In this document: positions 6,348 through 9,758 of the stretch, in pieces
Position numbering within the stretch: the first letter of the stretch is position 1
Layout of the letters: each line of letters opens with the position of its first letter
DNA from: Desulfomonilaceae bacterium
GTDB lineage: Bacteria; Desulfobacterota; Desulfomonilia; Desulfomonilales; Desulfomonilaceae
DNA length: 36,151 bases
Direction of reading: 5' to 3'
Assembly (NCBI GenBank): GCA_031082285.1
Contig: JAVHLK010000050.1
Coordinates: 1-36,151, forward strand
The notes under the pieces: model-generated
Seen by the model: only the letters and a program-made list of their open reading frames with translations
Told to the model about the DNA's origin: nothing
The model's database searches: none
Made by a program: the position numbers and the translations under genes

Positions 6348-6437
6348 GATGCGACGGCTTTAGGCCGTTTCCATGAAGTCGTCAATCACTTCAGGGAGTT
6401 GATTTCATAGAGGTTGCAAGGAATAAGGAGACCGCGC

Positions 6438-8966
6438 ATGAATAGCCGAGTGCATTTCTGGGTGGTCTGCGATGCCGTCGACTTCATCAAGAATCACGGA
6501 GACGAAGCACAGAAGAGGGCATTACAGACTTTCCAGATCGCGTACGGTGAGAACAAGCCGGTTGAAGATATACCTGTGGGGCGGACCGCGGTGGAGTATC
6601 TCGCGGGTTTTGAATCATGGCACACCGACAAGTTTCGCGATCTGGCTTTTGAACTCCCGACTCTTCCCTTTGAGCGAAAGAGGAGTCTCACCGGGTTTGC
6701 CGGTCGAGTGTTCTCGGCGTTCGATCATTTCATCAATCCGTTTCCTCAGGAAGAGAAAACCTGGACGGGAGCCGAGGGGTATTCATACGATCTGTCTTCG
6801 AGAAGAGGACTCGACTCGTTGATCATGCGGGGAGCGTCCGACTGTCTGCACGGACGCATAGACGTGGAGAACTCCCCGGTTCTGGAAAGATTGAGACCGT
6901 TCTGGGAGCGGGAAGCCGGCGAGTGGGACAGCCATTTCTCCCGCGAAGTTCGGCACGTGAAGTTCGCGCCGTGGACCGCGTTGACGAGTTTCTACTACTC
7001 GCAAATTCTCCTGAATCACTACGAGCCCCTCGAAGTGCGGGGGCCCAACGCCGGCATCCTTGGTCTGCAGATCCTTGGCCCGGTGTTACATGCGATAGCC
7101 GATTCCTGTTCGATACAGCACGTCAGACCTGCCTTGGGATTCGGGCATCCTATCTGGGAAAACTATGTCCAGAGTCGGATCTACAACCACGAGATCAAAG
7201 TCGATCCGATCATGGTTCGGACCTTCCTCCAGGAGAAACCCTTCTCTCCATGGCTTACCGGCACGAAGGGACCGTTGAAGGGGCGGTTTGACGTGGAGAC
7301 CTTTGTCCATGAAATGAGCGTCAGGACCGTCAATCGCATGTCGCTGTCCACCGGATCGGACTGGCAACAGATTCTCCAGGCGGATACCGGGTTCTGGTGG
7401 AAGTACTTATCCGGTCCCCGCATGATGGACGACGTCCGCTACATGTACAACCAGGCCGTGGCAGGCACGGTTCATGCCGTGGTGAGATGTTGTGAGGACC
7501 TTACGGCGGTCGGCATCCTTGAACCTGGTCGGGGATTGGTCAATCCGGAGAAGATGCCTCCCGTGGATCTCGCGCAAGACGACCTGACGACGCTGCCTCA
7601 GAAGAAACAGCTTCCGGCCGGTGTACCCTCGGAAAGCTTCCGACTCGACCCGTTTGCCAACGCGGTGGATCTGCTCGGCTACGTGCCGGTGGCGGAAACC
7701 GATTTGGCGGACCGGATTGCGGACGCAAAGAATCTTTTTACCGGCTCCGCAAGTCGAAAGAGACGCTGGGAAGACGTGGAGAGAGTGCTCCACGGTATCG
7801 AATCCTCATTGCGGGTCCAGTACGAGGCAAAGGTTCGAGCAGACGGCCCCGGGTTCTGTCCTTTCAGTCACTTGGAGGAACTCCCGGTCGAATCCGACCT
7901 GAGTGCGCATTTCGGCACGGCTACGTTCCGATTACCCTCGTCGGACGAGTGCAACGATTCGCACCTGATGCAACGGTACATGGACCGGGCGGCATCCCAT
8001 GAATTGCTGGCCGAAACACTGCAGCTTACCCAGCTGGCCGCGGCTTTCTCCCACTATCGTGACCAGCGGTCCTCAGAAATGGAAGCCGCCTGGGAGCTGA
8101 ACCGTATTGTCCAAGGCTTGCGGGAGCTTAGGAACGTGCGGCCCAACCGCCGGGAGAGCACACCGGAAATAAGACTCGAAGGCTCCGCTCGTGCGGCCTC
8201 CGAAGAGGGGGGTGAGGTGTTTAACGCAGGTGCATCGGCGGCTCGACCCGATTTGAAGGCTACAATGCTTAAGATCGGTGCAGCCGGCTTCAACCTGCCG
8301 TCCGCGGCCCTTACCGGTGTGTCCTCCGCGGGCAAGAGTCTGTACGCGCTCATCAGGCGCGGGACCGCATCTCTCATGAATGTCCCCATGGCTGCGCTGG
8401 CCACCGTGGTCGCGACCATTCTCGTTCTTGTTCTGGTGCTTCCACCCGGCCCACCCCAACCGATCATCGGCCTCAGCTCGGAACAGTGGGAACCGCAGCG
8501 ACTCAGACTGATGGCGCCGAGGGAACGACTGCCCAAGGCCCCGCTTTTGAAGCAGGTTCCCAAGACCCGCACCGCGATGATTCTCCAGTTTCAAGGTTTC
8601 GAAACTCCACCGGAGCAAGGTATGGTCGATTCCCTGTATAAGGCACTCACACCCGCAAGCAAGTGGAAGAAGGAATTCGATTTCATTGCACCGAGCACGC
8701 TCAAGCAAGCCGTAACTGACGGCGAGATACAAGCCGCAACCGCGAAGGAATTGATGGAGGGCCTTCGGAGCAACTTCGACGTCGCAATGGTGATACTCTT
8801 GACGGTTCACCAGCGTCGAGACCTGTTCGACGTGACCGCGGAGATGAAGGACCTTTCCACAGGCAAGATAGTAGGAACCGAGACCCGCAACGATTTGAAA
8901 GGAGACGAACTTTCGAAAGGCGTCAGAAACAGTGTCGCCAAACTCTTTGCCCAAACCGAGCACTAG
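6438..8966 (+). CDS. Large single-span protein with phospholipase C/S1-P1-like N-terminal domain
   Basis: I start this gene at the ATG at 6438 (AAGGAG seven bases upstream), giving 842 residues. The N-terminal ~320 residues contain HFWV..AVDFIKNHG, FDHFINPF (near residue 95) and LGPVLHAIADSCSIQHV (near 213-229). This His/Asp pattern resembles the helical zinc-binding fold of phospholipase C and S1/P1 nuclease, in which 'LH-x-x-x-D-x-x-x-P/Q-H' helices supply metal ligands. No export signal precedes it. A low-complexity linker leads to one strong transmembrane helix (about residues 649-672, VPMAALATVVATILVLVLVL). The last ~150 residues begin RTAMILQFQGF and look like a small alpha/beta domain on the other side of the membrane. 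Specific function is unknown. If the N-terminus is cytoplasmic, the enzyme-like domain faces the cytoplasm, which would be unusual for this fold. Confidence 0.72.
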   Translation: MNSRVHFWVVCDAVDFIKNHGDEAQKRALQTFQIAYGENKPVEDIPVGRTAVEYLAGFESWHTDKFRDLAFELPTLPFERKRSLTGFAGRVFSAFDHFINPFPQEEKTWTGAEGYSYDLSSRRGLDSLIMRGASDCLHGRIDVENSPVLERLRPFWEREAGEWDSHFSREVRHVKFAPWTALTSFYYSQILLNHYEPLEVRGPNAGILGLQILGPVLHAIADSCSIQHVRPALGFGHPIWENYVQSRIYNHEIKVDPIMVRTFLQEKPFSPWLTGTKGPLKGRFDVETFVHEMSVRTVNRMSLSTGSDWQQILQADTGFWWKYLSGPRMMDDVRYMYNQAVAGTVHAVVRCCEDLTAVGILEPGRGLVNPEKMPPVDLAQDDLTTLPQKKQLPAGVPSESFRLDPFANAVDLLGYVPVAETDLADRIADAKNLFTGSASRKRRWEDVERVLHGIESSLRVQYEAKVRADGPGFCPFSHLEELPVESDLSAHFGTATFRLPSSDECNDSHLMQRYMDRAASHELLAETLQLTQLAAAFSHYRDQRSSEMEAAWELNRIVQGLRELRNVRPNRRESTPEIRLEGSARAASEEGGEVFNAGASAARPDLKATMLKIGAAGFNLPSAALTGVSSAGKSLYALIRRGTASLMNVPMAALATVVATILVLVLVLPPGPPQPIIGLSSEQWEPQRLRLMAPRERLPKAPLLKQVPKTRTAMILQFQGFETPPEQGMVDSLYKALTPASKWKKEFDFIAPSTLKQAVTDGEIQAATAKELMEGLRSNFDVAMVILLTVHQRRDLFDVTAEMKDLSTGKIVGTETRNDLKGDELSKGVRNSVAKLFAQTEH

Positions 8967-9103: not shown

Positions 9104-9209
9104 CCCGGCACTGAAGTACCGGGCTACTCTCAGTAGCCCCTGTCGGGGCAAGAGATCGCGCACGTCCCGGAGGGACGGTATGAGAGTAGACCGGTCTTTC
9201 AAGGCCGGG
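9104..9209. repeat. 106-bp compound palindrome (REP-like, multi-hairpin)
   Basis: Two 29-nt arms, 9104-9132 and 9181-9209, are reverse complements at about 24 positions, with CTACTCTCA against TGAGAGTAG perfect. Each arm folds on itself: CCCGGCACT..AGTACCGGG in the left arm and CCGGTCT-TTCA-AGGCCGG (9191-9208) in the right. Two alternative hairpins lie between or across them: GGGCTACT-CTC-AGTAGCCC (9121-9139) and CGTCCC-GGA-GGGACG (9163-9177). It sits in the convergent gap between the 842-residue gene and the Cys-rich peptide gene, 138 bp past one stop and 44 bp past the other. No ORF is credible inside it. Confidence 0.75.
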
Positions 9210-9252: not shown

Positions 9253-9522
9253 TTAAAGGTGAGCGCCGCCGGCATCGCATCGTCCTCCGGGCGCACTCCC
9301 GGCTTGGCACTTTGCCGCGGCAACGGACCCTGAGGCACACTGTGCACCATACGCTGCGGACCCGGCTTGGCACTTTCCCGAGGCGGTGCCGCCATCCATA
9401 CACTGCCACCCGGACGGAACGCTTCCGACCGGGTTGCAGTGAGGCGTCTGGCTCTCGACCGGCGAGAGGTCGAATGGTATCAGGACAGGTTTTTCGTACT
9501 TTGGCTTTGCGTTCCGATGCAT
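9253..9522 (-). CDS. Candidate RiPP precursor: Cys/Gly/Ala repeat peptide with YxxPxL leader
   Basis: This 89-residue peptide has two parts. Residues 1-25 form a charged, leader-like segment with KYEKPVL (Y9, P12, L14), the YxxPxL spacing that RRE/PqqD-type domains recognise in lasso and related leaders. Residues 29-89 are a low-complexity core of Gly, Ala, Ser and six cysteines (C29, C41, C51, C62, C72, C82). The last five head a C-x-x-G unit repeated every 10-11 residues, as in GKCQAGSA and AKCQAGSA. A 16-bp direct repeat (9298-9313 and 9361-9376, spaced 63 bp or 21 codons) shows duplication in frame. There is no signal peptide, and the ATG has only a weak GGTGA before it. No radical SAM, RRE or transporter gene is in the window. 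It could be a false ORF in GC-rich DNA, but the in-frame periodicity argues against this. Confidence 0.62.
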   Translation of the reverse strand: MHRNAKPKYEKPVLIPFDLSPVESQTPHCNPVGSVPSGWQCMDGGTASGKCQAGSAAYGAQCASGSVAAAKCQAGSAPGGRCDAGGAHL

Positions 9523-9758
9523 GAATCACCGCACGGCGGATGCGACTCTTGTGCGCGCTCTCACGTGGATGCCGCGTCGGGCGCCGTCTATCCCTTCCTC
9601 GGGTTGGACGGCGGCCGAAGGCCGCGCAGAACTCAACGATTACAACTGGACACCCGCCTTAAGGTCACTGTAACGCACCGGAGAAAAAGAAGCAAGGGTT
9701 CGCCCTCTTAGGGGTCGTGTCGAAGGGACGATCGGCAGGTAGTTCCGGGTCGCCGCGG
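9523..9758. other. Gap upstream of the Cys-rich peptide gene
   Basis: These 236 bp hold no credible gene. The only structure I see is the hairpin GCGGCC-GAA-GGCCGC (9611-9625), with a 6-bp perfect stem and no T-run on either side. It lies downstream of the minus-strand GT-C gene and upstream of the peptide gene. No consensus promoter for the peptide is evident. Confidence 0.5.

Follow-up and report, generated by a model that had tools for sequence, protein, structure and literature searches.

A probable ScmA-like RiPP precursor gene in a Desulfomonilaceae genome in which the SynChlorMet-type genes are dispersed

The minus-strand frame at 9253-9522 of the window (the whole stretch of 36,151 nt analysed here) is, with a probability that we put at roughly 85%, the ScmA-like precursor of a RiPP pathway of SynChlorMet type, and in this lineage the genes of that pathway lie dispersed. 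The sequence evidence shows the precursor family and its association with ScmD, ScmE, ScmF, ScmC, an S26 peptidase, an exporter and a nucleotidyltransferase. The SynChlorMet system is catalogued in NCBIfam and apparently uncharacterised in the open PMC literature, where a search over 5.39 million papers found none naming SynChlorMet, its TIGR accessions, or ScmE or ScmF together with radical SAM. The NCBIfam models are TIGR04248 (ScmD), TIGR04249 (ScmC), TIGR04250 (ScmE), TIGR04251 (ScmF) and TIGR04252 (the ScmA precursor), and the associated set comprises a PqqD-type RRE (ScmD), two radical SAM/SPASM enzymes (ScmE and ScmF), a protein of HPr-kinase fold (ScmC), a SipW-type peptidase, an ABC exporter and a nucleotidyltransferase. 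The features in the window are the following.

9253-9522, minus strand: predicted scmA-like RiPP precursor gene, 89 aa, ATG at 9522, stop at 9255-9253
9481-9498, minus strand: YxxPxL leader motif Y-E-K-P-V-L, residues 9-14, predicted contact of the PqqD-type RRE ScmD
9256-9438, minus strand: core, from Cys29 to the C-terminus, with six Cys and five C-x-x-G units of period 10-11
9361-9384, minus strand: repeat copy 1, upstream on the coding strand, encoding KCQAG with Cys51
9298-9321, minus strand: repeat copy 2, encoding KCQAG with Cys72
9694-9707, minus strand: weak hairpin resembling a terminator, with a T-tail, lying between scmA and the 607-aa gene upstream of it

Translation of the frame gives the N-terminus MHRNAKPKYEKPVL and the leader MHRNAKPKYEKPVLIPFDL, followed by cysteines at positions 29, 41, 51, 62, 72 and 82, of which the last five each open a C-x-x-G unit, while Cys29 lies in CNPVG, a C-x-x-x-G unlike the other five. 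A stop codon is found two codons 5' of the ATG at 9522 (stop-to-stop frame F-M-H-R...), so that, counting ATG, GTG and TTG, the frame offers no other upstream start. The direct repeat measures 24 nt at 92% identity, including 16 exact bases, and its copies lie 63 nt apart from start to start, in frame. The preliminary description had reported this 89-codon frame, its leader and cysteine pattern, and the repeat that duplicates KCQAG at a 63-bp spacing, and on all these points it reads the DNA correctly. Of 100,000 shuffles of the same core, 34 had as many as five C-x-x-G units, and no ORF of 40-200 aa with five such units occurred in 60 first-order-Markov copies of the window. GC by codon position did not separate the frame from the frames overlapping it, and the coding case therefore rests on homology. 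Scans of the peptide alone against Pfam and NCBIfam gave only sub-threshold matches (gamma-thionin, E 0.48; ScmA, E 0.48), no sequence relative of it was found among solved structures and no match for its gene among plasmids. In the AlphaFold model the core is predicted to be disordered, with a pLDDT of about 40. The hairpin at 9694-9707 (one found, against 0.8 expected in shuffles) is compatible with a separate scmA transcript; a simple scan found no sigma-70-like promoter for the gene.

The peptide gene adjoins, on the other strand, a gene for an 850-aa protein (6414-8966) with no Pfam match. Downstream of the peptide gene there is an inverted repeat (9104-9132 and 9181-9209; 29 nt, 83% complementary, 48 nt apart), and two words taken from 9104-9209 have exact matches only in loci covering that site. 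The neighbours of the gene in the window do not recur at the peptide loci of the compared relatives; this orphan site is therefore not an orthologous locus in them.

Peptides sharing this leader and these repeats turned up in a search of related genomes, and by its sequence the frame is a member of a real family, with a K-x-Y-E-x-P-x-L leader and a C-x-x-G unit every 10-11 residues. For a test free of circularity, 17 peptides encoded close to ScmE or ScmC genes of other genomes, all identified without the window peptide, served as the input of an HMM. Among 3,717 ORFs this model gave the window peptide 50.8 bits (E 3.6e-14); the highest-scoring of 20,000 shuffles obtained 17.5 bits. Across 33 peptides, Gly stands at +3 of 185 of the 216 core cysteines (86%), while shuffles gave a mean of 41 of 216 (19%) and a maximum of 60 in 2,000 rounds. 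The spacing between cysteines in these peptides is mostly 10 or 11, the residue at +6 is Ala or Pro after about 62% of the core cysteines, and a peptide of the family may have up to 14 of them. The Tyr and Pro of the leader are invariant in all three peptide alignments of relatives, but a regular expression demanding the leader motif and Cys had served for the initial selection of the cassette peptides, to which this conservation is partly due. Independent support for the family comes from the position beside scm genes, from the excess of C-x-x-G over shuffles and from 13 genomes of the host family that have neither peptide nor enzymes.

The NCBIfam ScmA model reaches these peptides poorly. 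With a cut-off of 35 bits, it gave the window peptide 10.7 bits; of 19 peptides it matched 10, weakly and with E values no higher than 1 (2.5e-7 at best), and four sister peptides obtained 28.6, 18.4, 17.9 and 15.9 bits, all below the cut-off. Several matches from the first search of relatives, at E 0.02-0.1, lay inside the frames of other genes or contained stops and were dropped, and weak matches in the host genome on contigs C286 and C111 were unrelated frames in ordinary operons. The search of this genome for further peptides of the kind, proposed in the preliminary description, was run by alignment and found no second one.

From the neighbourhoods of the relatives it is evident how the family is placed. 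In the phylum sample, with the genome of the window excluded, a homologous peptide lies beside ScmE at 18 of the 21 ScmE loci, the stretches read around the other three (G072, G194 and G322) having no recognisable one; it is also present at all six of the named SynChlorMet loci outside that sample, which belong to Nitrospirae (with three peptides), Lentisphaeria, Chlorobiaceae, Anaerolineales, Chloroflexi and a Methanospirillum MAG. Only about 7 of the 80 loci listed in the genome-contig scan were SynChlorMet-like, and the taxonomic spread is a lower bound. The usual order is scmD, scmE, scmF, peptide, scmC, S26 peptidase, ABC exporter and nucleotidyltransferase, with variations, the peptide being commonly just 5' of scmC. 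The relatives thus combine a conserved leader, a variable core and a place beside leader-binding and modifying enzymes, as a RiPP precursor does, and the window copy stands in trans. On this genomic evidence two earlier proposals hold, that the YxxPxL leader belongs to a RiPP precursor read by an RRE and that the Cys-repeat core belongs to radical SAM/SPASM enzymes; the absence of any homologous peptide family beside a maturase, named then as a refuting outcome, did not occur.

Two loci of the sample show other arrangements. In G010 (L117:1103-3307) ScmE and ScmF form a single frame of 735 aa, a natural fusion of both radical SAM/SPASM enzymes. The single-contig genome G072 (L090:8953-10340) has ScmD together with ScmE, and neither ScmF, ScmC nor a peptide is found up to about 9 kb from them; this is possibly a second, independent dispersal of the cassette.

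No maturase gene is found within the window, and the enzymes lie elsewhere in the same genome, each above the cut-off of its model.

Contig C77: scmE and scmF, ScmE 590 bits and ScmF 586 bits, cut-off 400
Contig C253: scmC, 233 bits, cut-off 125
Contig C254: scmD, 131 bits, cut-off 100

The genome therefore contains ScmC, ScmD, ScmE and ScmF, spread over three contigs other than the one with scmA (C260), and not a single cassette; an S26 peptidase gene lies about 300 nt from scmD on C254. It should be noted that this MAG is fragmented into 314 contigs, with contamination estimated at 4.2%, and that scmE starts 58 bases from a contig edge, so that distances within it are minimum estimates. In a near-closed relative, G005, the dispersal is not an assembly artefact, because all the placed genes are at separate sites of one 6.5-Mb contig: ScmE at 2.00 Mb, a peptide at 4.42, ScmF at 4.94, ScmC at 5.32 and 6.11, ScmD at 5.42 and a second peptide at 6.11 Mb, spanning about 4 Mb. 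In another relative, G008, the cassette is complete, and the genome has in addition a peptide-scmC pair at a separate site and one more peptide, its third. The same five of 18 genomes of the host family have the peptide, ScmC and ScmE, and none of the three occurs in the other 13; the odds of one such coincidence under random placement, kinship ignored, are 1 in 8,568. In the ScmE tree these five genomes form one group (SH-aLRT 98), inside which the genome of the window pairs with the clustered G008, and the dispersed G005 and G012 join the clustered G010 (84 and 83). This mixture of dispersed and clustered genomes suggests that an inherited cassette broke up repeatedly. The maturases probably act in trans, with the gene of their precursor placed elsewhere on the chromosome. 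The preliminary description had placed the maturase outside the window, acting in trans, which agrees with these four enzymes; beyond what it proposed, the maturase set is a catalogued one (SynChlorMet), is dispersed here and includes an HPr-kinase-like protein and a SipW-type peptidase.

In G005 and G008 (L114:11075-18204 and L028:11490-17525) the scmA and scmC genes adjoin genes for very large surface-type proteins, two of which have DUF4347 and FG-GAP repeats and all of which have an N-terminal LExRIVLD-like motif. A functional link between scmA/scmC and these proteins is possible.

Concerning the accessory functions, leaders of YxxP type are bound by PqqD-type RREs in lasso and LPP (linear polyphosphorylated peptide) systems (PMC6784204, PMC13381572). 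The structural model of ScmC (pLDDT 86) matches PEPCK and HPr kinase, and the protein has an invariant P-loop Lys and an Asp-Asp pair. With this PEPCK/HprK fold and P-loop, ScmC is predicted to be an HPr kinase-like tailoring kinase; HPr-kinase homologs phosphorylate Ser of lasso precursors (PMC8498205). The S26 (SipW-type) peptidases of the SynChlorMet loci keep Ser, His and Asp, the residues needed by the LppS peptidase of the LPP system, which cleaves the leader only when the RRE is present (PMC13381572). The exporter and kinase genes suggest that the product is a secreted, phosphorylated peptide.

On these grounds a pathway can be proposed. ScmD would bind the KxYExPxL leader and present the core to ScmE and ScmF, which would abstract hydrogen and form thioethers, each linking one Cys with the alpha-carbon of its +3 Gly; the result would be a string of unnested four-residue rings, one per C-x-x-G unit. 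ScmC, with its PEPCK/HPr-kinase fold, would phosphorylate a hydroxyl residue; the SipW-type peptidase, helped by ScmD, would remove the leader, and the MsbA-like exporter would secrete the product. The SPASM enzyme GggB makes the two unnested rings of streptosactin, Cys31-Gly34 and Cys25-Ser28, each with the spacing i to i+3 (PMC8172795), and it is from this spacing that one four-residue ring per C-x-x-G unit is predicted. By analogy we infer that the window peptide may carry Cys-Gly(+3) thioether rings, and the presence of two radical SAM enzymes would imply a second step besides thioether closure. Tentatively, and with the odds somewhat against it, the system may represent a RiPP class in which long cores carry strings of four-residue Cys-Gly thioethers and kinase/nucleotidyl tailoring, two radical SAM/SPASM enzymes cooperate, and the genes are separately placed yet interdependent in one lineage.

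Compared with known systems, the nearest likeness is to the SynChlorMet cassette as catalogued, since ScmC, ScmD, ScmE and ScmF of the host genome exceed the cut-offs of their models and the sister peptides resemble ScmA; the differences are that the window precursor falls below the ScmA cut-off and that the genes are spread over several loci and do not form one cassette. The LPP system, published in 2026 (PMC13381572), shares the RRE, a YxxPx[V/L] leader, an HprK-like kinase, a SipW-type peptidase, an NTP transferase and an MsbA-like exporter, but SynChlorMet adds two radical SAM/SPASM enzymes and Cys-repeat cores; the word 'radical' is absent from the main text of the LPP paper (PMC13381572). 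Lasso peptides of paeninodin/pseudomycoidin type (PMC8498205) have a YxxPxL-type leader, a PqqD-type RRE and tailoring by an HPr-kinase homolog and a nucleotidyltransferase, whereas the SynChlorMet set is without macrolactam synthetase or B2 peptidase and radical SAM chemistry of the core is expected. Neither the gene list of the window nor the recurrent genes of the cassettes contain a macrolactam synthetase and B2 peptidase with the precursor. With the sactipeptide streptosactin (PMC8172795) the likeness is in the SPASM radical SAM enzyme and, as predicted for SynChlorMet, in unnested linkages from Cys to +3; streptosactin has one radical SAM enzyme, two rings, a short core and clustered genes, while the SynChlorMet peptides have up to 14 core cysteines and two radical SAM enzymes, with a chemistry predicted from spacing.

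The host genome also has a lasso-like group on contig C144 (L060:7504-11133), consisting of Asn-synthase-type, Transglut_core3 and HPr-kinase-like proteins and a PqqD-like match, with a short frame at 8420-8677 on the minus strand that has the leader motif KKPYETPEL. Two systems with nearly equal YxxPxL leaders, SynChlorMet and lasso-like, are thus found in one cell.

The dispersal raises the question of whether the precursor is still in use. A cassette that broke up could have left 9253-9522 as a stranded relic, no longer processed, and the gene does adjoin no scm gene and shows no sigma-70-like promoter by the simple scan. We consider this unlikely: the frame, the leader and the six cysteines are intact, and the independent profile scores the peptide like those borne by cassettes. 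It is, moreover, the sole such peptide found in a genome whose ScmC, ScmD, ScmE and ScmF, all above cut-offs, would otherwise be without substrate, and the trio of peptide, ScmC and ScmE is retained jointly in 5 of 18 family genomes, dispersed ones included.

The peptide might also be processed by the lasso-peptide machinery elsewhere in the genome rather than by ScmD, ScmE and ScmF, given the nearly identical leader motif at the C144 locus and the relatedness of RREs for YxxP leaders (PMC13381572, PMC12710340). The Cys-repeat core, however, matches the ScmA-like family and not lasso cores, the peptide co-occurs with ScmC and ScmE, and RREs are able to discriminate between Y/WxxP leaders (PMC13381572), so that we judge this very improbable. 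We give still less credit to a Gly/Cys-rich peptide used directly, in metal binding, as a disulfide or at the surface, and not as a RiPP precursor. Such a role would suit the predicted disorder of the core, and a C-x-x-G repeat alone is not diagnostic, but the YxxPxL leader is conserved and homologs stand repeatedly beside ScmD, ScmE, ScmF, ScmC, the S26 peptidase and the exporter in the phylum of the host, with the same placement in records from Nitrospirae, Chlorobi, Lentisphaeria, Chloroflexi and Methanospirillum.

As a ScmA-like precursor, the frame gives SynChlorMet a chemistry that can be tested and a precursor family which extends far past what the ScmA model covers, with members in several bacterial phyla and in a Methanospirillum MAG. 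It also represents a RiPP pathway whose genes are scattered and yet retained together in the same genomes; genome mining based on gene clusters would miss such precursors. The SynChlorMet and lasso leaders, KPKYEKPVL and KKPYETPEL, are a natural test, within one genome, of how RREs avoid cross-talk. Finally, the retention of the dispersed pathway across several genera suggests that it is of use to the producer.
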